The notes under the pieces: model-generated
The model's database searches: none
What the model was told of the DNA's origin: nothing
The model's input: the letters and a program-made list of their open reading frames with translations, nothing else
Position numbers and translations under genes: made by a program
NCBI RefSeq assembly: GCF_015354405.1
Contig: NZ_JADKYP010000027.1
Location: 1 to 64,000 of the forward strand
Length of the DNA: 64,000 nt
Reading direction: 5' to 3'
Origin: Nocardia sp. BSTN01
GTDB lineage: Bacteria; Actinomycetota; Actinomycetes; Mycobacteriales; Mycobacteriaceae
In this document: one piece after another, positions 1 through 64,000 of the stretch
Numbering within the stretch: position 1 is the stretch's first letter
Layout of the letters: the number at the start of each line of letters is the position of its first letter

Positions 1-19819
<19,819 letters not shown>

Positions 19820-20026
19820 CCGAGGCCGGTGCACGGGGTGCGGCTGCCCGAACGGGGTGCGGCTGATCTCCGGCACGGGCTTTCGGTCCGAGGTTGTCGT
19901 GCGGGCGCCGTTCGACTTTCTCATCGACACCGGCGCCTTGCTGCGGTAGCGAGTCGGGAGGGTGGGGTCGACATATTGTCGGGCGGTTGCAGCGCGGACC
20001 AGGCACAGTGGATGTGGCACATCGAT

Positions 20027-35581: not shown

Positions 35582-36780
35582 TCACCTGCGGATCGGCCGT
35601 GGCGACGACTCCCGCACCGGGCCACCGTGGCGCTCTCCGGTCGGGGCGGTGGGGCCGGCGCTTCCGTTCGGGGTTCGGAGCGCCGTGCCGGTACCGGTCG
35701 CATCAATGATGTTGGCGAGGAACGGGACTCGGGCGACCGCTGCGGCCGGATGGCGGCGCAGGACGGTTTCGCGCACGGTCCGGATGTACCCTTCGGTTTC
35801 CGGATGATCGCGGCGCCGCAGGTAGTGGCCGAAGTCGTAGTCACCACCCAGCAACTCGTGTGTCGTCTCCGCGAGCAGCCGTAGCCTTTCGTTCGCGGGT
35901 GTGGACGGGCGGGTTCGGCGCAGTTGTGTGCGCAGGGCGTCGTCGAGTATCTCGGGAGCGGCATCCGGTCCGGCGGCCAGCACTTCCGCGACGGTGGAGG
36001 TGAACCACTGGGCGATTCGCCCCTCCACCGATGTCGTGCCCTGGAATCCGTCGCGCAACCGCATGGCGTGACGCAGCTGATACGGCTCGATCCAGTGGTT
36101 GAGGAAGCGGTCGTATACGGGGCGGCAGGCGATCATCGGAAGCAAGCTGTCGCCCGCGTAACGTGCTCGGAAGTATGCCGGTGTCTGCCGGTCCAGGGCT
36201 CGGCAACCCGGATAGTTCAATCCGTAGACACCGTCGCGGGGGATGGGATCGAAATGCCGGAACTCCTCCGGCCGCAAGAGTTTCCGGGTCAGGTCACGAT
36301 CGACTTGGAGGATCGGTCGTGCCGCGACCATCGCGAGGTAGGGGTACTGCGGAAGTTCGTCGAGCGACAGGTCGCGCTGCACGCGGCCGATGGCGCTGGC
36401 ATGTGCCGCGGTGTCGGGTCCGCTGGGCTGCTCCAGCTCACCTCCCCACATCGTCCCGTATTTGTAGACGGGCAGCAGCTCACCGGGCGTCCGGGGTCGC
36501 GGCTGTTCGAGCAGCAACCTGCGGCCGCTCGTATTGGGAAGGCCGAGAGCCGCTTCCGCCTCCAGCGCGGCGGCCGAGAATGCCGCGAGCACACTCAGCC
36601 GGGGCCCGCGTTCGCCCAGCCAGTTGAGCTGCCAGTCCCAGTAGTCGGGACTGTCGATCCAGGCCGGGCCGTGCTGTTCACCCGCCGCGATGCGCAGCAG
36701 ATCATCGATGTAGTCGAAGCTCGGACCGAATCCGAGTAGTTCCGCGGCGAGCCGGTCGGGTTCGGGTGCGTATGCGGTCG
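35582..36780 (-). other. Giant protein: C-terminal unknown domain
   Basis: The last 400 or so residues start after a RIGSRPSATAYAPEP linker. They include DYIDDLLRIAAGEQHGPAWI, PVYKYGTMWGGELEQPSG and DGVYGLNYPGCRALDRQTPA. No known toxin signature was identified. In polymorphic toxins the C-terminus often carries the final toxin, so this is a candidate. Confidence 0.4.
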
Positions 36781-39700
36781 CGGACGGCCGACTTCCGATC
36801 CGGGGTTCGGGCGGGGTCGAGTCGCGTCGTTCGGCCTCGGCTGCGGCCAGCTCGCTGAGCTTGTTGTGGAGTACCGCTTCACCCTCGGTCGGTGTCAGGG
36901 TGTCGACCTCGGCAGCCACTACCGATTCCGCCTCGGCCTCCTGAGTATCGAGGGCGCCATCCTCCTGGCGGATGCCGTACGAGCTGAATTGCTCTGCCAT
37001 CCAAGCCCGCAAAGCTGGAATGTCGTTGGAACCGTACCTGTCTCGAAAGTACTGTCTGACCACCTCGTACGGACCCGGCGCGTCGTCGGGCAGGTGCCTG
37101 CGCAGCAGATGCGCCAATTCGTGAACAGCCAGGCAGAAGTAGACCCGATCGAGATCGACGCGCAGCCGTCCGGCAGCCAACTGCGCTATCGCATCGTCGT
37201 GCATTCGCGCCGGTGCGGCCATCCACCATTCGTTGAATTCGACGGCGTCGACGGAAGCGTGGCCGAATTCGCCGATGTCCCCGGGAGCGATCCTGATCTT
37301 CGACACCTCGTCGAGGATCGGGAATCGGGCGATCATGTGCCGTATGCCCGCGATGAGATCACCGGCGGTGGCCGCAGTAATGCCAGGGTTGTCGAGCCCG
37401 ATGATTTCGATTCCGTGGTCGGCCAGTAGCGCCGCGGCCATGGCCGACTTGGCCTGTTGTTCCGCCGGCGTCGCAGGGCGGTACTCGGCCGCCAGTTGCT
37501 GTCGGAGCTGGTCCCTCCCGACCTGGCGCTGCGGCGCGAGCGTGGTCAGCAGGTTGTGAAGCACCTGCTCTCCGACCGACGTGTCCTCGGGATCGTGTTC
37601 CATCGCCGAAAAGGCTCCCGCCAGCGCGGCGGCACCGTCCAACCTTCCGTCGGCGCCCGGTCCGTAATGGCGGAATTGGCTTTTCGACCAGGCGTATGCG
37701 TCACTCGGAAGCCACGCCGTCGCCCCCTGGTGACTGCCCTCATGGTGGTCGATGAGGGTCGTCTTGGCATCTCGTTGTGCGGTCCGCCGCGTCGCTGCAT
37801 TGAGGGCGTAGCCGAACTCACGTCGGACCAGCCCGAGCATCGGCTTCTCGGCGGCCCCCACAGCTCGTCCGCTGTCTATCATCGCGGCCCATTCCGCAGC
37901 GAAGCGCGCTCGATCGGCTGCGACGATGTCGGACACCGTGATCGACCGGGTGATGGGGTAACCGGCGCCGCTTCCGGCGACGTGATCGCTCACGGCGAGC
38001 GGGCGTGTCTCCGGGATGGGGCCGAACCCGATCCGGAGTAGTTGGACGTGCGGATATTTCGTCAACAGGTGGTGTATCGCCCGGGCTAGGTCACGAACGA
38101 GTTCCACTGTTACGCCGGGTATGTCGATTCCGAACATGTCGACGGCGTGTCTGTCCCACAACTCGGCGGCGACCGCGGCGCCCGTCGTACAGGCTGCGAA
38201 CGGGTCGGCCACGGCCCGATCGACAGCACCGGCCGCGACCACCGAATCGCGTGCCGCACGCGCCAGACGCCGATGCTGCTCACGCAATTCCTCCGGGTAA
38301 CCCGGATCATCGAACGGCAGTCGCTGTTCCGGGGTGGCGATGCGCCAATGGCGTTGGAGGCGGCCGTTGTGAATCCGGCTGCCCAGGTCCTCGAGGAAGT
38401 CGTCGGTCGAGATATCTGTCCCGGAATCCAGCGCGGCGTGCACGAATCGCACTGCGATTTCGGCCAATCGCAGATGTTCGGACAGCACGTCGTTCGGAAG
38501 GTCGTAAAATTTCGTGGTGTCCGGCGAGATTCGGTTGCTGCTGTTGTGCGCGTCGATCCAGGCCTGCTCGGTCGTCGTGTCGAGTGTGGCGCCGTATCCC
38601 GTGGGTTCGTCGGGTAGTTGAGCGGTCGCAACCGCGTACATGCGAGCCGCAGATCCGACGACCAGCGAACGCGGAGGGGGTGCGGGAACGTCGCTGCTCG
38701 TCTCCTTGGATCGAGGCGCTGAGCCGATTTCGCCGTCCTCGGCCACCCGGTCCGTCGCTTCCCCGGCTTGGAGCGGCATCGGGTTTTCGTGAGACGCGCC
38801 GGAACGCTCGGTGTGGGGCTGCTTCGGGTTACGAGGTCGACCGGGTTCGAAACGTGTGACGCTCCATGGCGTTACGCCGCCGGGCACCGTTCCGATCGCC
38901 GGGTCCGCGTCGACTCTGCGCGGAGCGGCGTCCAGGGCGTCGGCGATCTCGTTGCGGGTGGGCGGCACGGCGCCGCGGGCGGGCTGCCGTCGGCCCGTAT
39001 TCGGCCGGAGCGCCGGCGCGGCCCCGAGTGGTGGGCGTCCGCGATCATCGGTGGGGAAGGTCACCGTGTAGGTGCCGTCCGGGATGGCGGGTCGGCCTGC
39101 CGGATCCACCACCCATCTGCCGTCGACGGACCGGACGTGCGCTCGGGCGAGTTGTTCTCGTGTGCTTCGTTCTGCGAGTTCGGTCGGGACTTGGTGGTGG
39201 ATCGGTGTAGCCGGTGTCTCGTAGGTGCCTCCCAGCGATGCGGCGAGGTACCTCGCCCTGCCCAGTACATCGAATCGACGTATCACCGATCCGGCGGTGA
39301 TGGTGCCCATGGCCGCCGTCATTCCGATCGCGGTGGGTGTGGCTCCTTGGTTGGCGATGAGCGTGCCGCCCGCGAGACCGGCCAGGGAGTAGGCGGCGAT
39401 TCGGCTGACGTTGAGGAAGGAACTCGCGCGCCCCAGCCGGTCCTCGGGCACGTTCTGGCTGAAGTAGGCGTTGGTCCGCACGCCGGTGGCTCCCAGGGCC
39501 ACCCAGCCCGCCGCGTAACCGGCCCCGCCGATGTACGGGTCGTTCGTGACCGCGGTGATCAAGGCGCTGGCCGCCATCCCGGTCAAACCGACGTATTTGG
39601 CGGCCAGCAGTTTGTGGATGTCGACCTTGCTCAACCATCGTTTGGGGAAGAAATTGCCGATGATGCCGCCGATCGACGGCAGGATGAACGCCGCGGAGGT

Positions 39701-57700: not shown

Positions 57701-60700
57701 GAACACGACGACACCGGGGTCGCGATCGCCTGCTTCGATGGAACGCAGGTGGATCGTGCTGATCCCTGCCGCCTGTGCCAGCTCCTCCTGTGATACCCGT
57801 CGGTCGTTGCGGTGCGCTCGGAGCCACAGTCCGTGCTCGCCGAGAGCGTACGCGGTGGGGTCGAGATCGGTTGTCGCTGCGGGAAAGAAGTGGCCGGTGG
57901 CGGTATCGATCGCTTCGCGCCCGAGGTCCAACGCCTGACACAGTGACCGGAAATCAGCAGCCCCGAGGTTCTGCTCTGCCCGTTCGATCGATCGGAGATG
58001 TTCGGTGCGGATTCCTGCGGCCCCTGCCAGGTCCTCCCGTGACATGCCGCGTTCGCCGCGGTGCGCTCGGAGCCACAGTCCCTGCTCCCCGGGCGCGTAC
58101 GCGGTGGGGTCGAGATCGGTTGTCGCTGCGGGAAAGAAGTGGCCGGTGGCGGTATCGATCGCTTCGCGCCCGAGGTCCAACGCCTGACACAGTGACCGGA
58201 AAACGGCGGCCCCTGGAACGACCTCGCCCTTGCCGATCGAGCTCAGATACTTCGCGTTGATCGCGCCGGCCTCCGCCAACCTCTCCCACGACATGTCCCT
58301 GTCATTGAGCATCGCCGAGATCCAACGGCCTGGCGCGTCGAGAGGGTATGCGGCCGGATGCAGATCGAAATCGGCGTCCGGATAGAAATTGCCTGCCGCA
58401 TCCACGAAATCGGATCTCGGCACACCCAGCGCTCGGCCGATCTTCACGAAGAGTCCAGGCCGCGGACGCGTGCTTCCCTGTTCGATCCGGCTCATGGTGC
58501 TGCGATTGACGCCGATAGCTCTGGCCAGGTCTGCCGCAGTCATATTCGCGCCGTCACGCCGGCCCTTGTCGTGACGCCGCGCCGTGATCCACTCACCCCG
58601 CGCACGGTTCAACGCATTCGCGGTGTGCTGAGCCGGCTGATTCGCCGCGTTCTCCGACGGCCTGCTGCCGATGCTCCCCAGTGCGGCACCGGTCTGGTCT
58701 TCGGCAGCTATGGGGGCCGGGCCCTCATAGGGTCGACGACCGACCTCTATGCGTTCGTCGCGGCGCGGATCGTTCGATACGGTCTCTGCGGCATCCAGTC
58801 GGATCGGCATCGCCGTGCCCAGGTCCGATAACCCAGCGACTATCGCATCGAATTCGTCCATCGTGGGGTCGGGAGCGACGACTTGCCGGGATGGCTGTCG
58901 GGCCTCGGCGGCGGGGGCGCCCCGGCGCGAATCAGTGACGAGGTTGCCGTCGCGGTCGAACTCGATGGTCTCGAACAGCCGCTTCTCCACCGGCATCCGA
59001 TCGATGAACCTGTGTTGCTCGCGGCGCCATTCATCGAATCCGACAGCTTTGTTCAGCATCGCGCGGCGGTTTCGCAGGTCCCGGGGACCGTAGTCGTTCG
59101 TAGTGTCACCGTCCCGCGAGGCCGCCAGGTCGACGACGACCAAGTTCGGTTCGTCGATCGAGTCGCTGTCGTTGATCAGCAGGACCATATGGTCGTCGGC
59201 GTCGGCGCTGCCGCTCGCTCGGGTGTCCTTCCATTTGTAGACCAGGACGCTGATCCCGCCCGGCCGGGACTTCAACGATTCGGCGGCCTGCTCCAGCGAA
59301 TCCCTTTTCTGGAGCGTGGCGCCGAACACCTTTCGCACCACATCGCGTCCGTGGCCCCCCAGGCTGGCGGCGGGCATCTCGAAACGGCGGGGGTTGTCGG
59401 GGCACAACACTCGCATGCCGGTCACCGCATTGTTGACACAACTGTTGGGGCTGCGGCGGTGGATCTGCACGACCAGATCGAGCAGGGTCGAAGTGGCCAG
59501 ATACTGCGACGCGGCGGCGACGATGTCGGCGTCCGCCCCTGCGGCGACGTCTCTGCTGTCCGCGTTCTCGGCGTTTGCATCTCGGTCGGCTGCCGCTTGG
59601 ACGTCCGGATTGTGGGATTCCGCGCTCTGAATGTCCGAAATATCGGCGTCCCGGCTCACCGGTCCGGGAACTACTGCCGCGGAATCGATATCGTTTCCCA
59701 CGGCGTGGCCGGTGTTCATGGCGGTCAAGTGATCGCCGACCGCTTCGCCCAGGATGTCGCGGGCGATGACGGGGGTGATGCCGGCGGCCGGATAACCCAG
59801 CGCTGCCGCGAGGGCGCCTCTCGCCTCGGTCAGCAGCGGATCGAGCATGCGCATGCCTTCGGCGCCTTCGATATCCGCGCTCGGCATACCGAGTTCGTCG
59901 GCGAGCTGGTTCCGCCACTTCATTATCTCGATCAGTGCGTCCACATCGCTGAGCCCCGCTCGCTCGCGCGCCTTCGCGGGGGCGGTGGCCTCGACTTGTT
60001 GCCGCAGCGCCTCCGCCGTGGCGGGTGCGAGACCGGCCCGATTCAGCAGTTCGCGCACCGGATCGGTGGCACCGTTGCGTTCGAGTTCGGCAATCTGGTT
60101 CGCGACGGCCGGAGCCGGGATTCCCAGCAAACCGGCCAGCCTTCTCGCCTGGTCCGCCGGCTCATCCGGGCGGGTGAAGTCTGGTTCGCCGTACAACCCG
60201 GTCTCGGCTTCGGCGAGGGTGAGGGGGACGTTGCCGGTCGAGAAGGCATGATGGCGGATGAACTCCGCGGTGGAATGCCGCAGCGCGCGCTGCTGCAGTT
60301 CCGGTGCCATCTCCCGCACGGCATGGCTCGCCGCGACGACCGCATCGTGGGTCTGGGCGGTGGGATCGGCCTGGTGGGCGGCCACGGCCTGTTCGTAATG
60401 AACGACCGCCTCACGGACTCCGCGCAGGTGCATGGCATTGCGGATCAGGGCGTCCTGCGTCGACATCACCACTTGCGCGCTGCCACGCTGACCGTTACGT
60501 GCGGTGCGGTTCTTGGCCTGTTCGTGGATATAGGACTGCTCAGGAGCCTCGGTCATCCAGACATGCATGCCGCCCTTGACCTTGACCGCTTCCGATACCG
60601 AGATATCGACACCGCGCTGGCCCTGCTTGTTGATCACCAGGATCTTGCCCTGCTCACCGGCCTCGTCGAAGACCTTCTGCAACTGGGCTTCCCAGTCCGC

Positions 60701-63700
60701 GCCCCAGCCGATGATCCGCTTGGCGTCCACCGCTTCGATCGCCTCTCGGGGCACTCCCGCGCGCACCAGTGCCTCGACCTGCCGGGCGACCAGATCGTTG
60801 CGGTGACAGAGGATCTCCTGGAACCGGCCCTCGCCTCCGGCCCGCATCTCGTTCGCGTATTCGGCAATCGCGCGCAGTTTGGCATGCGTGCTCTCGACCA
60901 CATCATGCTGACCCTCCACCAGCCGATGCGTCTGCGACCGTCCGACCTCGTGGGCCTCCTGCAGACCGTAGATCTTGTTCAGTACGGGGTTCAGGTCGGT
61001 GAGGGTGCCGGATGCGCCGGTCACTTCATCGAAGAAGGATTCGCCACCGACACGGTAGATTTCGACCGAATCGATGCGTTTGGCGGACTCCGCATCCGCG
61101 CGCACCACGATCCGATGCGCGTCGGCCTTCTCCCCTCGAGCCTCGGCCGCCCGGAACTCCTTGGCTTCGATGGCTTGGGCGAGACTCGCCTTGCCCGGCT
61201 CCGCGCTCCACCGTGATTCACTCGAGGTCTTCGGGTTTCGTTGCAGGCCGTGTTCGGCTTGGTCGATGATGACGATCTTGCCCGCGTCCATCTCGTAGTG
61301 GACGCCTTCACGGACGAGAAATTCGGCGTGGGCCGCGGTCTCCAGCCGGGAGGCGCCCATTCCGTCCAGCCAGTCTTTTCCGCCGGGCAGTGCCTCGACC
61401 TTCGCCCGGCCCTCGGGCGTGAGTTCGGGTTGACCGTCGTACCAGTACATGACCTCCGGTGACCCATCGGCATGCTCTCCTATTTCCTCCGAAATGCGCC
61501 GGAGGCCGAAATCCTCGTGTGACAGAGCCCCTTTCGCCAATGCCTCGGTGAGGAAATCGTGGGCATCGAATACCTGCTTGGCGGTTGCCTCCGGCGCCGC
61601 CTGCTCGACACCTTCCGACCGGAGGAACTGCCGTTCACCCCGGTCGATGATGCCGTCCATCTCGTCGATCAGCGCATGGCGCGGTGGCTTGATACCGGCG
61701 TTGCACAGATGCCCGACTGTCTCGCCGGTCGCGACCACGATCGCAGGCCGCCCTGTCGTGATCGGCCCGAAACCGTGCTGCTGATCGGCGCGGAACACGT
61801 CGATCCCGAATTTGCCCAGCACGTTCTGCATGTCGGCGAATTCCTCATCGCCGGTCAACAGCTTCCGATACGTGCTGACTTCGCGGTTGGCCAGTCCATC
61901 GGTGGTGGTCACGAGCAGAACCGAATCGTGCTGCACCGCACGTTGGATTGCGCCGGCCATGAATACCAGCGATTTGCCCTCGCCGGGTTTCATCTCTACC
62001 GGACGCGATTTCATCGCGTAGACGGCTTCGGCCTGTTCGACCCGCAGCACCATGCCGCCGGGCACCTTCTCGCTGATCGTGCCGCGCCGGATGATCTCCA
62101 TCGTCGCCAGCAACGACTGGTGCTCGTCGCCGCTGTGCAGGCCGGCCATCAGCACGTCGTCCGGAAGGTTGGACAGGCGTTGACTCTCCGGAACATGCTC
62201 GGCGGAGGCCTGGTGGAAGTCGATCAGCAGATCGACCGCCTTGTCGCGGTCGCTGCGCGGCAGACCGGCGGCATCGGCGAGACTGTCGTGATCGGCGGTC
62301 GGAACGCTCTGCTCATCGTGCACCGATGACGGATGTTTTTCCGCAACGGGCGTTTCGGCACCGTCGGTCTCGGTCCGGCCCGAGTGCTCGGGACTTTCCG
62401 GGCCGGACTTTTCGGCGGTCGCATCCCGCTGCGGGGCCGAACGCTCTCCGCCACCCGAGGATTCGTGCTCGTCGCGAGCGCCCGGCGGCGAACCGGCTTC
62501 GCCCTCGGCGACCGGATGGGGTCGTGCCGATGTCTCGTTGCCGGCGCCGTCCGCGACCGCAGTGTGTTCTCGGGCCGGGCTCGGCCCGGCTTTCGCCTGC
62601 GCACTGTTTTCTCCCGGGGCGGCGGCCCTTTCGTGAACCTCGCCTACTCCGCGTGGCGGGCTCGCCGGGAGCTTGGGCGGCGGCGAGGTTTCGCCCACCG
62701 CCTCGACCGATAGGGGCGCGGTCGCCTTCCCGGCGGCGACCGTTTTCTCGGCCGGTGGCCGCTCGCCCGGAGTGGCCGTCTCGGAATGCGTGCCCGACCG
62801 TGCCGCGGCGGCGTCGGAGGATGCGGGACGGACCTGTTGCCCGGACTGGCGGCCACCGGCTCCGTCCGCTGCCGTCGATGCACCCTGTTCGCTACGCGGG
62901 CGTGGTTGCGCCGCCGCGGTCTGCCCTTCGACCTCGACGCGAGCCCCGCCGCGCTCACCTGCGGTCTTCGTTGTCTCCGCGGTCGGGCCCCATGCGTTTT
63001 GCGCGTCTTCCCACGCCCGTTTCGATTCCGCCGACACCTCGACCGGGCGCCGAGGCGTCGCGGCTTTCCCGTCGTGCCCTGCCGAGAACGCGTCGGGTGG
63101 TGTGAAGGTTCCGCCGCCGTCGACGGTCCTCGCGGGGGCGCCGCCGCGGGAATACACGCCCCCGGCGAATGCACCGTTGAGCAGCGGCGCGAGCACCTGG
63201 TCGTAATGCTGCGGCCAACCGGCCACCATCGAAGCCGCACCCAGACCCGATATCGCGCCAGCGGTGCCGTGCACCAAACCCATGGCCAGGCGGCTGCTTG
63301 CGATCTTGGGAAATACCATCGGCGCGAACTTTCCGGCGAGCATGCCGCCCGCCGCCCCACCGATCCCCGCCAAGGCCGCGACTTCGATCGACTTCAGATC
63401 GACACCGGTCGGATTCGAACCGTCCGATCCGATGATGTCAGCGGTGCGATCGCCGGTGGCGACCTGCAGCGCCTGCACACCCGCGTCCACGCCCACGGGC
63501 AGCGCGGCCGCCTTGCCCAGCATGATGGCGAACTGCAACGGTCCCGCCGCGGCCAGCCGAGTAGCCGCCTTCGCCGCACCGGCCTGGATCGCCCGTTCCA
63601 GGCCCGCCCGCATGGCCGTTACTTCGCCGCGCCCCTCGACCAGCATGGCATCCACGGTGGGCGCCGCGGCGGCGGTGCCGGCCGGACCCGCGGCCGCGGC

Positions 63701-64000
63701 GCTGCTCACCACACCGAAGATGCGCCACGCCAAGTGGATACCGAACGTGAACATCACGCACAGCCACTTCTCCGCGTCGTTGGCGGCCGCCTGCGCCTGG
63801 TCGGCCAGGGTGGCGGCGTCGTTACCGAGCTGAGCCGCGCCTTTTCCGTAGGAATGCAATGCCTCGCGCAGTCGGTCGGCCAGCTCGCCTACCGAATCTT
63901 CTTGCGCAAGAACAGCTTTGATTTCCCTGGAGTGCCCGTCCAGCTCCTCGCCACGTGCCCGGAGCTCGGCGGCCATCCGGCGCATCTCGGAGATGTCGGC
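35582..64000 (-). CDS. Giant modular ESX/polymorphic-toxin-like protein, at least 9,467 residues, 5' end outside window
   Basis: A single uninterrupted frame covers 28.4 kb. The first in-window ATG is at 63985, but the frame is open to the edge and the first residues look like the middle of a WXG100-like domain, so the real start is probably some tens of codons upstream. Residue numbers in the entries below count from that ATG. At least twenty modules follow one another and are described separately. They include a secretion-type N-terminus, a SecA-like ATPase, three papain-like domains, thirteen helix-turn-helix units, two GHKL ATPase domains, three zincins, a DUF1023 hydrolase and two MFS-like membrane domains. 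A recurring IG(S/A/H)(R/K/A)P linker separates many of them. No signal peptide, no housekeeping role and no dedicated immunity gene are seen. I infer a contact or ESX-dependent effector assembled by module shuffling; function is unproven. Confidence 0.9.
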   Translation of the reverse strand, partial: ADISEMRRMAAELRARGEELDGHSREIKAVLAQEDSVGELADRLREALHSYGKGAAQLGNDAATLADQAQAAANDAEKWLCVMFTFGIHLAWRIFGVVSSAAAAGPAGTAAAAPTVDAMLVEGRGEVTAMRAGLERAIQAGAAKAATRLAAAGPLQFAIMLGKAAALPVGVDAGVQALQVATGDRTADIIGSDGSNPTGVDLKSIEVAALAGIGGAAGGMLAGKFAPMVFPKIASSRLAMGLVHGTAGAISGLGAASMVAGWPQHYDQVLAPLLNGAFAGGVYSRGGAPARTVDGGGTFTPPDAFSAGHDGKAATPRRPVEVSAESKRAWEDAQNAWGPTAETTKTAGERGGARVEVEGQTAAAQPRPRSEQGASTAADGAGGRQSGQQVRPASSDAAAARSGTHSETATPGERPPAEKTVAAGKATAPLSVEAVGETSPPPKLPASPPRGVGEVHERAAAPGENSAQAKAGPSPAREHTAVADGAGNETSARPHPVAEGEAGSPPGARDEHESSGGGERSAPQRDATAEKSGPESPEHSGRTETDGAETPVAEKHPSSVHDEQSVPTADHDSLADAAGLPRSDRDKAVDLLIDFHQASAEHVPESQRLSNLPDDVLMAGLHSGDEHQSLLATMEIIRRGTISEKVPGGMVLRVEQAEAVYAMKSRPVEMKPGEGKSLVFMAGAIQRAVQHDSVLLVTTTDGLANREVSTYRKLLTGDEEFADMQNVLGKFGIDVFRADQQHGFGPITTGRPAIVVATGETVGHLCNAGIKPPRHALIDEMDGIIDRGERQFLRSEGVEQAAPEATAKQVFDAHDFLTEALAKGALSHEDFGLRRISEEIGEHADGSPEVMYWYDGQPELTPEGRAKVEALPGGKDWLDGMGASRLETAAHAEFLVREGVHYEMDAGKIVIIDQAEHGLQRNPKTSSESRWSAEPGKASLAQAIEAKEFRAAEARGEKADAHRIVVRADAESAKRIDSVEIYRVGGESFFDEVTGASGTLTDLNPVLNKIYGLQEAHEVGRSQTHRLVEGQHDVVESTHAKLRAIAEYANEMRAGGEGRFQEILCHRNDLVARQVEALVRAGVPREAIEAVDAKRIIGWGADWEAQLQKVFDEAGEQGKILVINKQGQRGVDISVSEAVKVKGGMHVWMTEAPEQSYIHEQAKNRTARNGQRGSAQVVMSTQDALIRNAMHLRGVREAVVHYEQAVAAHQADPTAQTHDAVVAASHAVREMAPELQQRALRHSTAEFIRHHAFSTGNVPLTLAEAETGLYGEPDFTRPDEPADQARRLAGLLGIPAPAVANQIAELERNGATDPVRELLNRAGLAPATAEALRQQVEATAPAKARERAGLSDVDALIEIMKWRNQLADELGMPSADIEGAEGMRMLDPLLTEARGALAAALGYPAAGITPVIARDILGEAVGDHLTAMNTGHAVGNDIDSAAVVPGPVSRDADISDIQSAESHNPDVQAAADRDANAENADSRDVAAGADADIVAAASQYLATSTLLDLVVQIHRRSPNSCVNNAVTGMRVLCPDNPRRFEMPAASLGGHGRDVVRKVFGATLQKRDSLEQAAESLKSRPGGISVLVYKWKDTRASGSADADDHMVLLINDSDSIDEPNLVVVDLAASRDGDTTNDYGPRDLRNRRAMLNKAVGFDEWRREQHRFIDRMPVEKRLFETIEFDRDGNLVTDSRRGAPAAEARQPSRQVVAPDPTMDEFDAIVAGLSDLGTAMPIRLDAAETVSNDPRRDERIEVGRRPYEGPAPIAAEDQTGAALGSIGSRPSENAANQPAQHTANALNRARGEWITARRHDKGRRDGANMTAADLARAIGVNRSTMSRIEQGSTRPRPGLFVKIGRALGVPRSDFVDAAGNFYPDADFDLHPAAYPLDAPGRWISAMLNDRDMSWERLAEAGAINAKYLSSIGKGEVVPGAAVFRSLCQALDLGREAIDTATGHFFPAATTDLDPTAYAPGEQGLWLRAHRGERGMSREDLAGAAGIRTEHLRSIERAEQNLGAADFRSLCQALDLGREAIDTATGHFFPAATTDLDPTAYALGEHGLWLRAHRNDRRVSQEELAQAAGISTIHLRSIEAGDRDPGVVVFLSLCDALNIEAEATHRAAGRFFPDARLDLGWAAYAPTEQGLWFRALRYHYLLQRSDVAADTGLSEKYIGQIERGERVPSRRIFRLLGSELGISPIDLDAAEDHFFASAPADQPGLRFDDIAAGDEAQAELVERQIVELLDGWSDPAYVRDIAAAVGASIRWGQGPISLRVELDADAVNVDLIDITGDNSYVRVEWRLGRTPDSVERAAEPPVERSSGEIDLDRLMEMFGESEPEEIPPYQREVRRIRNAVEGRLLEYEADISADLVDSIMRAVSELVTNAKKHLYSNASSAGLAPEEVLDLAIRGAGDDYQVHLAVANDIVPGIAAKLPKWTADEQAVDREGGRGTQLVIAESTVAVRRITFANGKNTIEHSVEFHATPPTGAIATTHSRSATRRPATTRYATTGRFLRRSTQEPADAVPDHVVACAGSTIQAAWADGLDAALIAHQDAESWGELVTGLTTGLAEIADVDGALVERLDREIDSLLNSEDSRQSSVFVVERDGIAHAFYVTQLDGVLFVYDTNVPRIADPDLGGRTISRIRDRDTWQQFFRQSFPRVDRAFFAHFESTAGRLTPRPHKAGAVLAGTNAPVRGRSNGPESSTLQRAQEGDAAAFRELRERYGEKTFRRLLDALTPDTQPAADPEAVRRRTVAQYINAVVFRIAETRRWPVAAEEDTEPWILDVARLAARAWSGLSSRQRRIITEAVTSPSRDRTPLQQGAFGAFARAAQALVPRDVAPEIDEHYEAVPDAPAHGLTEHELRLIRMVAAGLSNDVIARRLDRSESRVKFYLKQVGDKLGDHGRVGIVSAARELGLLSDDDIAASLGKPSNLEPTTQEVLILARVADGMSNEAVATQLGLSPLTVKAHLARVGGKLGIGDRAGMVARAFHAGLIPVIDSGPGVDWSDAEREVLGLVAEGMSNKEIAVLLGLSPDQVKVRLNRIGVKLGIRDRAGMVGKALRTGGLVLPSDAADTGSGVFQGRDSLSETEARILGLVKQGKTNRQIAAAQGISPTTVNAYLIRIGLKLRTSGRAAAVEEAENRGIDLTGEPLEARSTPDDPASGENIGHRPIGSRPHDTEGADAAGPSEFLSATTVPDGFRPALSRALWGPQSSIESADAAAPDTESRNHSPRERSVLAVLDYVAGATSGFVASAVSEGLEASVVEAIRGLDPADLEAMLVDLGAARSDVEGVVARFTRIQRQGAIPSAAPSAVPDVDDYLVRVSAPDGSDSWRTRRLVRRIMENWAHAGEVGWPDTDQVDSAELLVSELAGNIARHAGTHGFVIAAVTEGPGGPVIRVGVRDYSRTLPAWRNPDGNVESGRGGRLLTMLATDYGVVEHVDGKTVWFELRGERPGDDRAGDDDLDRLSTLFPDLGDDSTAPPSGGPEGRIGSAPHSPRATGFPALLTEGLNSGVVRREALPKVQGVMVERVTFGNGYQSDREVYDKADDAAKQWLTSLIGGAMGAPVAATHPANDDPTVLYREIVPGRAANTVLPQGMSRAYDLGLVNDDPASEGFAAFGSVDRSYLDSASGELLGLLDAVTGTRRSTRHWNIGPDGEVTGGRTALDSEQAGPSPFATKFTRYVDGRPVWQGHGFPRTDITGMREQVSYLQDRLRDFSSAQEAMLLDTHSRVMTELGRAERYAVHTPEETVHVGGLSADAQAKARLVEEFNLNHPYFVITGFNHPRVPVDAVREILETLDDLLTRYRHAPDLVAHMSNIRELRIDFLADPGVNAETLKRGTRSKWMTLNLSRVADRAQALEDDLYDRSTGFHPASGRSYHDDVIHEFGHAIDHATGNRLSREVDGVLRRAWAALRIAALVAEPYEEWLERLPEAAFTDETKTTLRPPEAIAVGFAAVEIDGPVVGSPQWVIHQFVTILRPPEISPDLVVNLLAGETKSGTATTADQSGADDVIGSRPHDPEKTESADTDIPRSAPIGHDTDVYREYTRTKGGPRHEAIFALTAAIRSGEVPPHPSATSDISALSGREQQILKLLTERLSRLEIAELLGVTRSFVNTAVQRTVRKLGARSDAEAVAMTLGVLDRIPTSAAAAAGQADPVYVVNPPHIAAALSALPGLEREFTRAGLADPRGEFAAAGADYLRTLIEVAAYELSLDRGAIARAHLSAAFDAGIALLNRFPAVTEIRDMLAPLHRLRRRLIEDPSATATTSAELEDDRPTRRILDRTVSHLQTIGRTEPAVGFKPLAGQAQREVPTDTGTNAADGPIGHRPSDAAPAPLDVDQVLQWILDSPSTPVQWQPVGQVPDDVLLASAADTVDAEVRRAARTAPMRGQTTTTPRCAIAELTYTAGRLEKLTADDRRSPVRVPDAEAARIIELFGIGGREFAEYAGGRYREYTAADADTAPLAPLLEALENRGKPTTLALLTVEPHRSRRDRLDGHVLTLGVDENGELWVHEVRRNADDTLAFDPDGNVADHIHLGADAHARLAELQEPDGQGEGRIFHAITYKKDGQPELPLRRSDNWSNAEWEREPGPNTRLGQDQPEDNPYRVPNNPPATVVPVARIRTRLAELQAAEQKNAPATERIRQLTEFANAVEEMSDAAATMARTRAETVTETQRQSALATVSSIATAVEAAARDATRRDDAVRLLAGLDASAVPQAHLVYAALFEHMSDAARYADDVDAADEREFDRSARQYESMLKLTDWLDALIAVLERVSPKSRSQQYDSLISTIPHHVDPHAPDASPLQSWLMREAIRSADRSTELGQRAAVSEQRHRAAVAAVVGLDRLLSSADSPGGRPGSEPIGARPSRTEYDGAELVRKFHPEVDEFWKRLVEVVVLDENEEGSFIGPDGEPFTTGRGQNCFLILRSGKIVTTKDGSGEHPNLLYSYIETHADENERRIYNKIDGPSIVAGGGIWRLADGRPEIIMFFSGLFIEHATRSPKFWAQARHRLSQNFDLSTIFIEYDNLHVGGAWQNPPENEDNSAEKFIRSSNSFQDRPALSKKVAEHLRGGNEEFWFEVENVGFPHDGGLSIDAIVHPVLGEPAAVTIDIGRGDTPEIARYRHFDPGPEPERTVPAFRVVHETLTQWLGASGIAITAPIEGPTDVIGARPDQASGNRDDTVASAPTPWQQRPGGSFPAIGARPSNGAAPDGTEAFRRQPDGAPWSRRTRGRGKNAQSTATHRPTESPAAPSTENPLAQRAIATLTEYFGANATERTLVQTVDPDDVTGASTAHTEKVAQWWESLGTGAPNRSGLPQVQKELDLSDEQYDMLRACSWLIGNADGIPYSVRDRANRLAIEERIDQFLERRPDRLRRFRTTLTAAERAELRNLLHLRDQLPLIEKTAAGLTGGPRVQVVAFDPAAHGENGRVIVSIGDLDNAEIINMMANGFGSTTEMLYHRSGYAMSLNEMATLRADGAAVATIGYIGYHCPTDASVAVPRKAADGGDMLACDITAVHATRAHYAGRDGGAPMPRLFNAVGHSYGSTTTCYAGRGGRLAGVIDHVILTGSPGIGWAVRHADDFGVPVWVLGEPADPVAQLGSTALQEHRAGIDIGLGLAPTSAEFGATVLTTEVPAGPKFAVSRSDRLDRSVFKPHASYYLWHDWPRRIPARALDNIGWVAVGRGDLAEVRQPHAADRRGWLRARSTGRPGSSDRSEKSPGPPQSPTHPDEGADIGSRPRPSTSTPSRKGPPIGAAPTEYAVATPVRPDAYQPHMAEDVRVRKLIVRDGLFCDSDGTPHNSDDFEYFLIGVQPDDFRVVGPGDFPDDEVDDDSYDFVHPHDIVFCSYADPGDGPIGAGYWRRMVNGIPRETLLTCRAFPDTLEERVKFVMQTLHWLSEHGMDLAALNLSGTFHGTIFRLPAPLHSAAELISQDYAHPESVFACATTQFWVYPTVVESTPARLSVSLPVTLLNGTRVEHTITLTRHGDTITASFTEPTLSPVATEAAAAWTQLRSELIDPWLANSNVVATQDPGAIGAKPSTNTTGDGRPDATVSKRELLVVNKPFTKLLFGEKFLPGEFVNQIGTAAASSGLTYVLLGRGESTTTTAMAAAALWVPGAFELLAGYAADFWKPEKVVNSALWVGSAAATTAAGLVLADASHLGAALTAATLVEATAGTFYTGTFLNEMRNLLTKSQLDSGNRLITSTGSAAGITGSALGAGLAGVAPAAPFGLNALSYWGNLANVRGFVFPPRARRQPRNLFREIGDGVRALRREKFLTQHTAFATINNAAFAMMGLRTATVLTDAGLPGWALSAAATAPAVGGILSGFLPKALDRINATTFYPAALASMAGFFTLMASTTDPAVIASASLVDATVMAAAGNRVTKYAQDAFPDDLQGRAMSARRLFLKSGPALGFLGAAAVANAHGGQGSDAMAGIAAAATALTATGYSALLLVRRGRVSLRVITRGRGWLGRLSRARQAEPAEAERAATNATRPTETSDEPAHPAEDSRVYHRLLAQLGDPRTARDLAARAHARAEREQPPTDPDAAAEHLLHIADTIIAEHRSAMAQLDDVVGDQPAPRQQRLAPFQHGGVFFHNQPDEPQAGVGSDDVPAEPNPHRLTGSEIEIAHERGETERARVDLARALGVDPRVLRKRGALLQVLDQVQTELRLLDDEAWSRIRAENLPGWLGRALDREYRAQRAMSDGATAEELARLDADTRQLDADLPTILGQDQLAPGWRAADSDDKLHELRLLATRANAPQEIADLVDAAARFLGLARPTPPATDSPAAAAAHASIHTEQPDPGAIGAKPAPTTTGEGQAGHRIGWRQRRVSDDVEIARHNYHRPQTRAAVVAVLERTFEVLQGLFPEASLAQILETRNARENQLWGGMVPSWVSWDELRDRGNLRELMCALLNVMIRNAELRHGSTGFTLDEGIARLLNRPDWRDTASRLRLDQAALERVRNAFPQGWTITAADLREVRFTRMRNPGADAAFEEYEQRKEISRPRSEAEQRRRHLTSGDLAALGMELSPREFAGLIERPRVLRIEPLDLESVELRYNENGRVDTEWLESQLKSDDADVEYVVPTYVYDDRGKHVRDSQGHCLVASVQVHHHDGYIDPINAGRLDPARYTIELPWRQGSALVELDPDSDYFRSTLAESESPFTAGISGSATRMLARFRWLGVLGVAEDEFIRAMAAFILPHHHSVFEFEQGLRIEGASLAGDPTVPLRDGDLDAFFDAALRRFGPSERTGRSSTATDLDRPGEGSTDSSESPEVSSWWDRRDNVPDTFLPVLRIDELETGSEIPRDQRGMIDVEALESRLRTDDPTVFSVAVTYHQDERGSRIGETVHVHRRVGFVDRRNAHHLDPKRFVVPGAPGRHTPEARGEHDPKTPWNPRSAPTRPTVPVTSPRGRTPGIWVDENLADAPGRKNDPGMVFAADPNLGDEARAFGRRNEESTESRPAAGAQAGSATPWASIGAKPAAGRSERTAELPGAGSLESRAGIAHVPVSSDHLKVLLWICQGRTVPEITEALPDKGNASTYIRELASAFGIPTKRYLIAAEGARRGLVSVHAPLTDLREVLTPRQIVVLAHLSRGLSRREIADKLSVSIRTVDEHVERSLPRVESPSLVTAMPRIVGALDAFDEDELTRLAESASGPAALPGGGQTAGTRLSAEEATVLRLVGRGLTYSDIATETGMVVREVRRALARARRKVGDSSGRRAAALLEEQRARRAAGGELRAARDRVGSPVPTPDSETTPTAAEAQIPRRSAAGAPNAGQIPEIGDALDLPRGTTARADRTGLVAHLSKDPTIVFADDPRVGDDGHANPARRKGEQSNPDTTAAERAAAGAEANGSLLRLVRNSAEARTLFSGQLVAEIGTSASQNALTLLMMGIDPQTAAIVAGLSDVPRLVLAPYMGYLADTIEPTRMMNRAKWVMFGASAVAAATSGFQTPYLVPTLIGANLVNTAADTLYGPAAFRVNRAIIGSGERLQQGLSQYNAFVTNLSRTIGNSFAGALEPWLLFGFDSAASGVNVAGLRRIRELPPPPKQTEPQSFRDRLRQVFIPGFEALNQDKILRNYTWNLVVTNGYLGAQHFFFIHSLTAAGLSGGQTSAAFILPSIGGIIGNFFPKRWLSKVDIHKLLAAKYVGLTGMAASALITAVTNDPYIGGAGYAAGWVALGATGVRTNAYFSQNVPEDRLGRASSFLNVSRIAAYSLAGLAGGTLIANQGATPTAIGMTAAMGTITAGSVIRRFDVLGRARYLAASLGGTYETPATPIHHQVPTELAERSTREQLARAHVRSVDGRWVVDPAGRPAIPDGTYTVTFPTDDRGRPPLGAAPALRPNTGRRQPARGAVPPTRNEIADALDAAPRRVDADPAIGTVPGGVTPWSVTRFEPGRPRNPKQPHTERSGASHENPMPLQAGEATDRVAEDGEIGSAPRSKETSSDVPAPPPRSLVVGSAARMYAVATAQLPDEPTGYGATLDTTTEQAWIDAHNSSNRISPDTTKFYDLPNDVLSEHLRLAEIAVRFVHAALDSGTDISTDDFLEDLGSRIHNGRLQRHWRIATPEQRLPFDDPGYPEELREQHRRLARAARDSVVAAGAVDRAVADPFAACTTGAAVAAELWDRHAVDMFGIDIPGVTVELVRDLARAIHHLLTKYPHVQLLRIGFGPIPETRPLAVSDHVAGSGAGYPITRSITVSDIVAADRARFAAEWAAMIDSGRAVGAAEKPMLGLVRREFGYALNAATRRTAQRDAKTTLIDHHEGSHQGATAWLPSDAYAWSKSQFRHYGPGADGRLDGAAALAGAFSAMEHDPEDTSVGEQVLHNLLTTLAPQRQVGRDQLRQQLAAEYRPATPAEQQAKSAMAAALLADHGIEIIGLDNPGITAATAGDLIAGIRHMIARFPILDEVSKIRIAPGDIGEFGHASVDAVEFNEWWMAAPARMHDDAIAQLAAGRLRVDLDRVYFCLAVHELAHLLRRHLPDDAPGPYEVVRQYFRDRYGSNDIPALRAWMAEQFSSYGIRQEDGALDTQEAEAESVVAAEVDTLTPTEGEAVLHNKLSELAAAEAERRDSTPPEPRIGSRPSATAYAPEPDRLAAELLGFGPSFDYIDDLLRIAAGEQHGPAWIDSPDYWDWQLNWLGERGPRLSVLAAFSAAALEAEAALGLPNTSGRRLLLEQPRPRTPGELLPVYKYGTMWGGELEQPSGPDTAAHASAIGRVQRDLSLDELPQYPYLAMVAARPILQVDRDLTRKLLRPEEFRHFDPIPRDGVYGLNYPGCRALDRQTPAYFRARYAGDSLLPMIACRPVYDRFLNHWIEPYQLRHAMRLRDGFQGTTSVEGRIAQWFTSTVAEVLAAGPDAAPEILDDALRTQLRRTRPSTPANERLRLLAETTHELLGGDYDFGHYLRRRDHPETEGYIRTVRETVLRRHPAAAVARVPFLANIIDATGTGTALRTPNGSAGPTAPTGERHGGPVRESSPRPIRR
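36850..38640 (-). other. Giant protein: two zincin-like modules, first with lost metal site
   Basis: Both repeat the layout of zincin module 1: a G(I/L)D(I/N)PG(V/I)T helix, a strand, then the metal helix. In the first, the HExxH position reads VRREFGYAL (Arg8722, Tyr8726), so zinc binding should be lost. In the second it reads AVHELAHLLRR (His8955, Glu8956, His8959) and is intact. Confidence 0.65.
39220..40500 (-). other. Giant protein: MFS-transporter-like membrane module 2
   Basis: Residues about 7829-8256. The layout matches module 1: SGQLVAEIGTSASQNALTLL at the start, FRDRLRQVFIPGFEALNQDK in the middle and VPEDRLGRASSFLNVSRIAA near the end, with about 10-12 hydrophobic helices. The two are homologous but diverged. 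Confidence 0.75.
40840..41500 (-). other. Giant protein: three further LuxR-type HTH units
   Basis: A degenerate unit (SSDHLKVLLWICQGRTVPEI) is followed by two better ones (LTPRQIVVLAHLSRGLSRRE and LSAEEATVLRLVGRGLTYSD). The second has SIRTVDEHVER as recognition helix. This raises the LuxR-type count in the chain to eight. Confidence 0.75.
41890..43560 (-). other. Giant protein: unknown domain with internal duplication
   Basis: Residues about 6809-7366. Two copies of a unit are visible: VLRIEPLDLESVELRYNENG to RLDPARYTIEL (about 42640-42910) and VLRIDELETGSEIPRDQRG to HLDPKRFVV (about 41910-42160). Both contain LESxLxxDDxxV and a YxDxRG turn. The rest is helical. No family is recognised. Confidence 0.5.
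43595..43622 (-). repeat. 28-bp linker repeat, copy 1
   Basis: Identical to 45911-45938, with further similarity upstream. It encodes the DPGAIGAKP linker. Confidence 0.95.
43640..44600 (-). other. Giant protein: helical hydrophilic stretch after MFS-like module 1
   Basis: Residues about 6463-6782 are charged and helical (AAEHLLHIADTIIAEHRSAM and ELRLLDDEAWSRIRAENL). No motif of known function is seen. Confidence 0.4.
44640..45880 (-). other. Giant protein: MFS-transporter-like membrane module 1
   Basis: Residues about 6036-6449. About 10-12 hydrophobic helices are seen with MFS features: GEFVNQIGTAAASSGLTYVL at the start, the central loop RNLFREIGDGVRALRREKFL, and FPDDLQGRAMSARRLFLKSG in the second half. 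Classic motif A is absent. It sits inside the giant chain with no stop or clear internal start. Confidence 0.75.
45911..45938 (-). repeat. 28-bp linker repeat, copy 2
   Basis: Same sequence as 43595-43622. The two copies bracket MFS-like module 1 and its helical tail, so recombination between them would delete or exchange that block in frame. Confidence 0.95.
45980..46780 (-). other. Giant protein: unknown module between hydrolase and MFS-like domain
   Basis: Residues about 5736-6003. An acidic N-terminal part (VGPGDFPDDEVDDDSYDF) is followed by FVMQTLHWLSEHGMDLAALN and a beta-rich end that looks like a small immunity-type or SMI1-like fold. No family is recognised. Confidence 0.4.
47000..48260 (-). 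other. Giant protein: DUF1023-type alpha/beta hydrolase module
   Basis: Residues about 5243-5663. Nucleophile Ser5529 lies in NAVGHSYGSTTTCYA, preceded by PRVQVVAFDP and VIVSIGDLDNA. An Asp follows in GEPADPVAQLG and a His in KPHASYYLWHDW. This matches DUF1023 hydrolases, which are common in actinobacterial secreted and ESX-linked proteins. Confidence 0.8.
48540..49430 (-). other. Giant protein: unknown domain with locally low GC
   Basis: Residues about 4853-5149. A hand count of 48841-49260 gives about 50% GC, far below the flanking DNA. The protein has an alpha/beta look (EGSFIGPDGEPFTTGRGQNC, EIIMFFSGLFIEHATR, STIFIEYDN). No family is recognised. The composition suggests a recently acquired module. 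Confidence 0.6.
49440..50200 (-). other. Giant protein: charged coiled-coil region
   Basis: Residues about 4596-4849 are helical and rich in Ala, Glu, Arg and Asp with heptad-like spacing (RTRLAELQAAEQKNAP and AVEEMSDAAATMARTRAE). No enzyme motif is seen; it is probably a spacer or oligomerisation region. Confidence 0.5.
50310..51790 (-). other. Giant protein: LuxR HTH, helical segment and papain-like domain 3
   Basis: A fifth LuxR HTH (SALSGREQQILKLLTERL, near 51630-51775) is followed by a helical stretch. Then comes a domain with Cys4387 in TTPRCAIAELTY and His4487 in LDGHVLTLGVDENGELWVHE. The third catalytic residue is not clear, so the papain-like call is weaker than for the first two. 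Confidence 0.5.
52040..53520 (-). other. Giant protein: zincin metallopeptidase-like module 1
   Basis: Residues about 3490-3983. The motif VIHEFGHAIDHATG gives HExxH with His3875, Glu3876 and His3879 and a further His three residues after the Asp. It is preceded by a strand ELRIDFL and a helical segment repeated in modules 2 and 3. A peptidase acting on host proteins or on this polyprotein is possible. Confidence 0.7.
53640..54100 (-). other. Giant protein: GHKL ATPase domain 2
   Basis: Residues about 3296-3449. The N-box reads ELLVSELAGNIARHAG, with a G-box NVESGRGGRLLTML and an RsbW-like ending KTVWFELRG. It is a second anti-sigma-kinase-like module, only distantly similar to the first. 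Confidence 0.7.
54570..55920 (-). other. Giant protein: sigma-like segment plus four tandem LuxR-type HTH units
   Basis: Residues about 2690-3139. A segment like RAQEGDAAAFRELRERYGEK and SSRQRRIITEA recalls sigma factor regions. It is followed by four LuxR HTH units: GLTEHELRLIRMVAAGLSN, TQEVLILARVADGMSNEAV, DAEREVLGLVAEGMSNKEI and TEARILGLVKQGKTNRQIA. Each ends in a VxxxLxRIGxKLG-like recognition helix. Confidence 0.85.
55960..56470 (-). other. Giant protein: papain-like cysteine domain 2
   Basis: Residues about 2506-2676. Cys2521 lies in VVACAGSTIQAAW, His2600 in DGIAHAFYVTQLDG and Asp2615 in FVYDTN. This C/H/D order and the HAFxV-DG-xxVYDTN ending are typical of papain-fold toxin or deamidase domains. 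Confidence 0.6.
56560..57010 (-). other. Giant protein: GHKL (histidine-kinase-like) ATPase domain 1
   Basis: Residues about 2326-2476. The N-box reads RAVSELVTNAKKH and a G-box-like loop reads REGGRGTQLVIAE. This resembles anti-sigma factor/RsbW-type kinases without a phosphorylated histidine domain. Confidence 0.65.
57846..57953 (-). repeat. 108-bp perfect direct repeat, copy A
   Basis: Identical to 58095-58202 and offset by 249 bp, exactly 83 codons, so it preserves the HTH frame. It encodes FRSLCQALDLGREAIDTATG and the following 16 residues, ending DLDPTAYA. Confidence 0.97.
58095..58202 (-). repeat. 108-bp perfect direct repeat, copy B
   Basis: Second copy of the repeat at 57846-57953. 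Perfect identity suggests a recent unit duplication or ongoing gene conversion within the XRE array. Confidence 0.97.
58900..60180 (-). other. Giant protein: helical spacer and papain-fold (Tox-PL-like) domain
   Basis: After an alpha-helical spacer (about 59500-60180), residues about 1496-1696 resemble the papain-fold glutamine deamidase/peptidase toxins. Candidate residues are Cys1516 in NSCVNNAVTG, His1599 in DDHMVLLIND and Asp1619 in VVVDLAAS. The order and the NxCVNxA context fit that family. Confidence 0.65.
60230..62290 (-). other. Giant protein: SecA-like ATPase module
   Basis: Residues about 566-1252. Motifs line up with the SecA motor: Walker A MKPGEGKSL (665-673; SecA MKTGEGKTL), Walker B LIDEMDGII with DEMD at 774-777, a motif-V-like stretch KQGQRGVDIS from 1120 (SecA GRGTDI), and a motif-VI-like NRTARNGQRGSA at 1159-1170 (SecA GRSGRQGDPGSS). 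The expected SecA C-terminal zinc tail is not seen. It may power unfolding or transport of other parts of the same protein. Confidence 0.75.
62290..63130 (-). other. Giant protein: disordered Ala/Pro/Glu-rich linker
   Basis: Residues about 286-566 are low complexity and rich in Ala, Gly, Glu, Pro, Ser and Arg with no hydrophobic core. This is a typical flexible spacer between a secretion domain and its payload. Confidence 0.7.
63130..64000 (-). other. Giant protein: N-terminal WXG100/CpnT-like helical domain
   Basis: Residues 1-285. Heptad-like helices (AAELRARGEELDGHSREIKA and AQLGNDAATLADQAQAAAND) lead into a hydrophobic helix (EKWLCVMFTFGIHLAWRIFG) and then small-residue segments (GIGGAAGGMLAGKF and GTAGAISGLGAASMVAGW). 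This layout resembles the N-terminal domain of CpnT-like and other ESX-associated actinobacterial toxins. It suggests type VII export. Confidence 0.65.

Follow-up and report, generated by a model that had tools for sequence, protein, structure and literature searches.

A megadalton Nocardia gene with exchangeable modules, a recurring junction motif and a WXG100-like N-terminus

Actinobacteria encode giant multi-toxins of up to 13,652 amino acids, the length of SACTE_5178 from Streptomyces (Zhang et al. 2012, PMC3482391). Polymorphic toxins of the CpnT type, linked to type VII (ESX) secretion, have a WXG100 or LXG N-terminus and a variable C-terminal part. MARTX toxins, as outlined in PMC3153235, hold effector modules in one chain from which a built-in cysteine peptidase releases them. 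Polyvalent proteins of phages and plasmids join 2–15 disparate domains, which peptidase domains are proposed to free (PMC5512222). The giant open reading frames of Omnitrophota (39,678 amino acids) combine extreme length with predicted membrane segments and, as reported, mostly have few annotated domains (PMC10066038). Nocardia includes opportunistic human pathogens (PMC9952739). For this genus, Rawlings 2015 (PMC4631099) gives a single-sentence mention of a 15,203-residue calpain homologue in Nocardia brasiliensis.

Here, we analyse a 9,513-residue protein of Nocardia sp. BSTN01. Like the giants of Zhang et al., it is actinobacterial, in the order of 10,000 amino acids long and has several peptidase- or toxin-like modules per chain (zincin, papain-like and hydrolase), and its relatives reach 21,183 residues. 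Unlike those of SACTE_5178, as described there, its modules are largely regulators (XRE, LuxR, GHKL), with two MFS transporters, a SecA-like ATPase and a PglC-like module. Furthermore, where PMC3482391 treats these giants, it makes no mention of a motif at junctions that goes with one papain-like domain. This motif is the main feature of the Nocardia protein and was overlooked in a preliminary description of the locus. CpnT-type toxins are probably similar in their WXG100-like N-terminus and partner gene, and also in having a variable C-terminal part; the difference is that about twenty modules, not one C-terminal toxin, follow here.

For domain assignment, the chain was split into ten pieces and compared with Pfam and NCBIfam; for the HTH-rich piece, this covers the best 25 of 35 Pfam and of 64 NCBIfam families. 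Neither an ART nor a caspase of the SACTE_5178 type, nor RTX repeats or a MARTX-type CPD, was among the Pfam families of the ten pieces (one being covered by its best 25 of 35). Hence, the protein is not a MARTX. The MCF1-SHE domain of SACTE_5178 may have no Pfam model. The logic that we propose does resemble MARTX as presented in PMC3153235, but the peptidase is Tox-PL-like rather than a CPD, precedes the string of modules and is a putative, not an established, processing enzyme. Polyvalent proteins share the many disparate domains; as described, they belong to phages and plasmids, whereas this giant has a WXG100-like N-terminus (PMC5512222). Compared with the Omnitrophota giants of PMC10066038, those of Nocardia have many annotated domains and exchange modules.

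Our best explanation, with a probability of roughly 0.6, is a type VII (ESX)-linked multi-effector polyprotein that is probably cut at the junction motif by its own papain-like domain. The sequence supports this with a constrained frame, an abutting WXG100-like partner, exchange of modules, the link between motif and domain and transporter modules of low hydrophobicity. The scale and mixture of the protein had been described as apparently new. This is only partly right, since giants of 13,652 amino acids (Zhang et al. 2012) and 15,203 residues (Rawlings 2015) were already known. In its main text, a survey of huge proteins contains neither the word Nocardia nor the word toxin. We found no account of these Nocardia giants, the junction motif or detuned transporters among the open-access titles and abstract openings covered by our searches; one may exist elsewhere.

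The reading frame and its modules

The window, 64,000 bases in length, comprises bases 1–64000 of an 86,615-base contig in a 7.8 Mb draft genome of 206 contigs. The stop-free frame continues 123 bases past the window to a GTG at contig base 64123, directly after the stop of the upstream gene. Hence, the protein has 9,513 residues (about 1,024 kDa, or ~1.02 MDa), and the single open frame already noted, given as more than 9,467 codons, is confirmed and slightly longer than was visible in the window. No stops interrupt the frame, while ~149 are expected from its own position-specific base frequencies. The other five frames of the region contain 53–222 each. GC content at codon positions 1, 2 and 3 is 0.705, 0.515 and 0.767.

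Comparison with relatives gave dN/dS below 1 in 35 of 35 block comparisons (range 0.08–0.65). These were made for parts with close relatives, which the modules F4400–4650 and F6845–7480 lack. Values were lowest in the N-terminal domain (0.08–0.12) and highest in the second MFS module (0.53–0.65). Close relatives keep the frame: the giants of G035 and G002 are collinear with this one over the first 1,800 residues, at 83–84% identity. Synonymous divergence between modules ranged from 0.11 to 0.73 in the genome pair G000–G002, and this spread points to separate module histories. Internal genes with their own starts received no support from the sequence. A strong Shine-Dalgarno-like site was found at 5 of 345 in-frame ATG or GTG codons and at none near junctions, a weak test because only 0.7 such sites were expected there.

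The features are as follows. F numbers are residues counted from the GTG at contig base 64123.

35582..64000 (-), giant gene, stop-free frame with its start beyond the window
63104..64000 (-), WXG100-like N-terminal domain, then a hydrophobic/glycine-rich stretch (F1–340); homologous to PF25547 WXG100_2 regions of sister giants
62204..63106 (-), low-complexity linker (F340–640), probably disordered from its sequence; aligns poorly
60134..62206 (-), SecA-like ATPase (F640–1330); Walker A motif GEGKS and DEMD in the sequence, matches above cut-off to two Pfam models
58919..59542 (-), papain-like domain, Tox-PL/Gln_amidase-like (F1528–1735); C1562, H1645, D1665; proposed processing peptidase
58730..58744 (-), variant motif VGRRP (F1794–1798), just downstream of the papain-like domain
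58658..58672 (-), junction motif IGSRP (F1818)
57344..58576 (-), four XRE-type HTH units (F1850–2260, approximate), by Pfam
55904..57361 (-), motifs of a GHKL-like ATPase (F2255–2740); also a second segment with weak similarity to Gln_amidase, E 0.03
54539..55906 (-), sigma-like segment and four LuxR-type HTH (F2740–3195), by Pfam/NCBIfam
54488..54517 (-), double motif IGHRP-IGSRP (F3203 and F3208)
53675..54007 (-), HATPase_c_2-like (F3373–3483), below the Pfam cut-off
53534..53548 (-), variant motif IGSAP (F3526)
52034..53446 (-), zincin module (F3560–4030), HEFGH at F3921
51965..51979 (-), motif IGSRP (F4049)
51608..51772 (-), LuxR-type HTH (F4118–4172), by Pfam
51032..51046 (-), variant motif IGHRP (F4360)
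50174..50926 (-), Cys/His module (F4400–4650), papain-like by eye only, no Pfam match
49421..49435 (-), motif IGARP (F4897)
48539..49411 (-), module without known family (F4905–5195); homologues in common with the F5790–6060 module
48413..48526 (-), motifs IGARP at both ends (F5200 and F5233)
46889..48361 (-), Abhydrolase_8 (F5255–5745), by Pfam; GHSYG
46757..46825 (-), motif IGSRP (F5767) and variant IGAAP (F5785), one at each end
45944..46756 (-), module without known family (F5790–6060)
45911..45925 (-), motif IGAKP (F6067)
44624..45871 (-), first MFS module (F6085–6500); GRAVY 0.36 (lowered), dN/dS 0.20–0.29
43634..44536 (-), conserved module, no family match (F6530–6830)
43595..43609 (-), motif IGAKP (F6839)
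41684..43591 (-), module without known family (F6845–7480), 46% identical to a module of a motif-less giant
41588..41602 (-), motif IGAKP (F7508)
40892..41290 (-), two LuxR/sigma-4-type HTH (F7612–7744), by Pfam
39194..40546 (-), second MFS module (F7860–8310); GRAVY 0.15, dN/dS 0.53–0.65
38714..38728 (-), variant motif IGSAP (F8466)
36854..38656 (-), second zincin module (F8490–9090); HELAH at F9001, further HEGSH at F8794
36785..36799 (-), motif IGSRP (F9109)
35684..36790 (-), C-terminal phosphoglycosyl-transferase-like module, PglC/Bac_transf (F9112–9480); LDELPQ at F9254

The module list of the preliminary description was mostly right: the SecA-like motor, the HTH units (XRE, LuxR/sigma-4), Abhydrolase_8, two MFS modules and two zincins were recovered. 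Pfam recognises eleven HTH units, four XRE-type and seven LuxR/sigma-4-type, rather than the thirteen counted. Where GHKL ATPases had been listed, one match falls below the Pfam cut-off and the other is identified by motifs, in the piece covered by the best 25 of 35 families. The C-terminal phosphoglycosyl-transferase-like module had not been named. It matches PglC in a PDB profile search (E 3.6e-8), and Bac_transf was found in 11 of 11 members. PDB profile searches with alignments of the papain-like domain, zincin 1 and zincin 2 gave no significant match (for zincin 1, a lethal-factor chain at E 0.33), and several modules matched no Pfam or NCBIfam family. Blocks homologous to F2255–2740 terminate near the motif in three giants (G031a, G030 and G004).

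Module exchange among Nocardia giants

Using the SecA-like part as query, 22 of 60 genomes (own included, 36 from Nocardia) gave matches, all of them Nocardia, in frames that reach 18,823 codons. A profile built from 13 N-termini matched 148 of 149 Nocardia genomes at E 1e-5, with many matches in giant frames, the longest among those listed having 21,183 codons. Giants also occur in single-contig genomes (for example 13,748, 14,143 and 15,216 codons). Across the phylum, PF25547 was found at E 1e-8 or better in 12 of 296 genomes, three of them Nocardia; in another genus, the frames reach 12,384 codons. One further frame (G005:C135:2-82144) has 27,381 codons and is still open at the contig start, so its true length is greater; it has modules in common with other giants.

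A shared N-terminus with different module orders had been proposed as a check, and this is what other Nocardia species contain. Beyond residue 1,800, module order and content diverge, and the position of a given module varies from one giant to another. Modules are also common to giants of another N-terminal clade; for example, the 21,183-codon giant has a counterpart of the second zincin with 67% identity. The earlier term 'unrelated modules' suits their functions, yet modules recur and several giants have them in common. Sister giants bear calpains and repeated zincin motifs, with several calpain domains each in G017 and G034. By description, and given these calpain domains, the 15,203-residue N. 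brasiliensis protein is probably a sister of these giants.

Recent capture of ordinary genes is disfavoured for the two modules examined. For the second MFS module, each of the 16 matches (E 1e-10, 59 genomes) lay in a frame no shorter than 2,098 codons. For the C-terminal module, the figure was 27 of 28 in frames of at least 1,831 codons, and one match was in a 357-codon frame.

Two loci have unusual arrangements. In G003, a giant is split into two overlapping frames of 2,938 and 4,990 codons (G003:C69:122900-131713 and 131376-146345). The break sits where the first frame leaves homology and is either a sequencing error or real. In G031, a separate 1,773-codon frame with junction motifs lies downstream of the giant (G031:C7:114681-119999); its first 150 residues are unlike the secretion domain.

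The junction motif and the papain-like domain

The motif IG[SA][RK]P has 11 copies in this giant, where composition predicts 0.05, and 128 copies across 18 orthologues. It recurs in linkers, with 188 copies in the 28 giants that bear the papain-like domain (250,636 residues). Shuffling of 30-residue blocks gave 1.05 copies on average and at most 5 in 200 shuffles. Among patterns of this form, IGnnP shows the strongest over-representation in these giants. The counts leave out the 27,381-codon frame of G005, in which the N-terminus is cut off and which holds 1 strict motif.

Motifs coincide with changes in homology. A homology breakpoint lies within 30 amino acids of 101 of the 128 motifs, and the remaining 27 have none nearby. 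In 2,000 trials, rotated motifs gave 18 (highest 38) and linker-matched positions 48 (highest 65). Viewed from the breakpoints, 98 of 402 clustered breakpoints lie within 30 residues of a motif and 304 do not. Hence, the motif marks many, but not all, module boundaries.

Putative catalytic residues of the papain-like domain are well kept across the 28 giants: C and H in 28/28 and D in 27/28. Among 200 genomes drawn from the order, 2 match the domain, both Nocardia. Pfam Gln_amidase matches 5 of the 28 members, with a best E of 6e-5 and two matches narrowly over the cut-off. Since this is a family of glutamine deamidase toxins, the domain may be a deamidase rather than a protease.

Motif and domain occur together. 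Of the 28 giants with the domain, 27 have the motif; of 16 without it, none does. This zero indicates no enrichment rather than avoidance, because 0.65 copies were expected by chance. We predicted the association ahead for 19 giants and found 18 as predicted (9/10 with the domain, 9/9 without). Nine of these ten further papain-bearing giants have 4–10 motifs each; the exception, G160, has no strict motif and three looser variants. A sparse case is G029, with 3 strict motifs in 18,823 amino acids. The Fisher test of motif against domain ignores relatedness at the level of giants, which are not independent events. The contrast is also evident inside single genomes (G023/G023b, G031b/G031a and G103a/G103b).

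Position provides a further link. No strict motif lies upstream of the papain-like domain (0/188, 32.4 expected), and the looser [IVL]G.[RK]P does so once (1/267, 46.3 expected). If A is also allowed at the first place, 18/300 are upstream. After the domain, a G.RP site is evident in a fitted alignment, with G and P in 28/28 and R in 27/28. By pattern, the same site reads [IV]G.RP in 20/28, or 22 including AGSRP, with 3 having none in the stretch searched. The loose motif flanks 119 of 173 module homologues in papain-bearing giants (54/173 are without it) versus 1 of 27 in others; this comparison began from motif-flanked modules, a choice that favours the papain-bearing count. We searched six giants without the domain for a different repeated linker motif, and none was convincing. 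Around residues 16,160–16,550 of a giant frame without the domain (G010:C11), VGARP, the single flank of this kind in giants lacking it, stands before a module that shares 56% identity with the C-terminal module of this protein. This module was possibly acquired from a motif-bearing giant.

On the N-terminal tree, papain-bearing giants form one clade (support 99/97), which also has a closely abutting partner gene. Hence, the association amounts to one origin, and domain, motif and partner gene may be co-inherited. This single origin fits a second explanation, in which a type VII-linked multi-effector acts as one chain and the motif is not a cut site but an inherited linker or docking element, spread by duplication of module ends. 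Over-use of AGR and AGY codons within the motif also points to common descent, and MARTX-like cutting is an inference. We nevertheless consider the one-chain explanation unlikely, if worth serious attention. The motif has persisted through module turnover and alongside papain-like domains just 44–50% identical to the one here, its wobble positions are free while its residues are kept, it does not occur upstream of the domain and the same modules exist elsewhere without it.

Partner gene, transporters and the remaining alternatives

The N-terminal domain of the giant has no direct Pfam or NCBIfam match, yet it aligns clearly with sister giants. Among six sister N-termini tested, four pass the PF25547 WXG100_2 cut-off (G017, G034, G010 and G023), G031b matches weakly and G019 not at all. 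The partner gene adjoins the giant upstream, outside the window (contig 64124-65731, 535 residues). Its product has SWGDDYMGRQFA close to its N-terminal end; the middle is of low complexity, and another part bears weak similarity to the zincin modules. With no Pfam match, it is labelled WXG100-like by motif. A partner homologue, whole or as the part within the fetched DNA, is found at 26/26 papain-bearing giants with enough DNA, a count that does not include G160 and G005. Seven other giants were compared. Four have a significant but more distant homologue, which in 3 does not abut. At the WGDD-like site of the partner, seen at ten loci, five have W and five F or Y. Among the 8 papain-bearing loci with that end seen, F or Y replaces the WXG tryptophan in 5. 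These sister matches and the partner gene, together with the reshuffling of modules, fit the earlier view of a 'modular effector or polyprotein' with a WXG100-like N-terminus. In another clade (G031:C1, G010 and G019), a frame of 127–143 codons separates partner and giant; it may encode a YbaB-type protein.

A search for EccB identified three ESX loci in this genome. Ten neighbouring frames of the giant (six upstream, four downstream) were scanned and contain no ESX core genes. No phage or plasmid families were found in these flanking frames, several of which are doubtful gene calls, and this general scan recognised no immunity genes among them. Elsewhere in this genome, a 6,359-codon frame encodes another WXG100_2 protein (G000:C1:227839-228243), and a further WXG100_2 frame lies 8 kb off. 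This pair lies some 30 kb from an EccB locus.

The transporter modules differ from ordinary transporters. GRAVY ranges from -0.03 to 0.47 for 16 MFS modules in 44 giants, several of which are orthologous to each other. For 40 ordinary MFS proteins of the same genome, taken as long single-piece matches from the strong and weak parts of 101 Pfam matches, values span 0.63–1.12, and the two ranges do not meet. When only the Pfam-matched segment is scored, the two modules of this giant give 0.24 and 0.34. Krampen et al. 2018 report that the membrane segments of type III and IV effectors are, for the most part, slightly less hydrophobic than would be required to target them to the producer's own membrane. 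Hence, the lowered values would be the pattern expected of an exported membrane effector. Alternatively, the transporters could be useless and decaying. For the first MFS module, its constraint (dN/dS 0.20–0.29) makes this less likely. For the second, low hydrophobicity could partly be decay, as its dN/dS is the highest.

We propose the following mechanism for the self-cut polyprotein. A constant cassette comprises the WXG100-like domain with its hydrophobic stretch, the SecA-like ATPase and the papain-like domain; changeable, effector-like modules follow. Together with the partner, the cassette would bring the chain to an ESX system for export. In or after delivery, the papain-like domain would cut at the motif and release the modules, following the logic of the MARTX cysteine protease domain. 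Less hydrophobic helices may keep the transporters out of the membrane of the producer. Candidate targets are competing bacteria, amoebae and other hosts; the regulators of bacterial type, together with the MFS and glycosyl-transferase modules, lean towards bacteria. More tentatively, at slightly less than even odds, exported megadalton polyproteins may be genus-wide, with the papain-like domain cutting IG[SA][RK]P, any module behind this code releasable and the cargo (whole transporters, transcription regulators, a glycosyl transferase) re-tuned for the target cell.

If correct, the proposal describes a chain that delivers several effectors, processes itself and bears a readable code at its junctions. 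This code would allow giants to be divided into modules, yielding many new effector domains, and the MFS modules would exemplify whole multi-pass transporters adapted for export. It also raises the issue of how an ESX system would move a megadalton chain; we know of no precedent for export of a 1-MDa chain via an ESX pore. Even without processing, these are genus-wide, very long single genes that the literature we searched hardly describes.

Alternatively, the chain could be a cytoplasmic polyprotein or scaffold whose regulators, ATPases, transporters and enzymes serve the producer itself. The bacterial type of the HTH, anti-sigma-like, MFS, SecA-like and PglC-like modules would fit such a role, as would the lack of ESX core genes in the ten frames scanned. 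We regard this as improbable, because it leaves unexplained the WXG100-type N-terminus and its partner gene, MFS helices less hydrophobic than in any of the 40 ordinary transporters, and the calpains and repeated zincin motifs of sister giants.

Codon use bears on whether the motif could instead be a DNA-level recombination site for swapping module cassettes. Clustering of homology breakpoints at the motif is consistent with this, as is over-use of the rare codons AGG and AGA. However, the 128 copies comprise 76 different 15-mers, and the Gly wobble carries 0.45 bit. Across 93 distinct motif contexts (<70% alike), all six Arg and all six Ser codons are used, with the Gly wobble free. Outside the five motif codons, only a D/G preference two residues before stands out. 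Restriction to giants with one protein domain would also be unexpected for a DNA site. A recombination site is hence disfavoured, and we think it very improbable. Judged by its codons, the motif is conserved at the protein level, and the AGR/AGY excess suggests common descent.

An assembly chimera or a neutral open frame in GC-rich DNA, which the draft assembly and spurious long frames in the window could suggest, is refuted by the stop count, the dN/dS values, giants in single-contig genomes and the collinear orthologues. One such spurious frame, of 4,414 codons (6776-20020 (-)), is antisense to an NRPS-type frame and lacks Pfam matches over the 2,000 residues compared. Hence, frame length by itself is little proof in such DNA. 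The first 2,000 residues of the NRPS-type frame (2-19819 (+), 6,605 codons) include condensation and adenylation domains. An encapsulin-like shell protein (Linocin_M18) is encoded at 27173-28468 (-), inside a longer frame.
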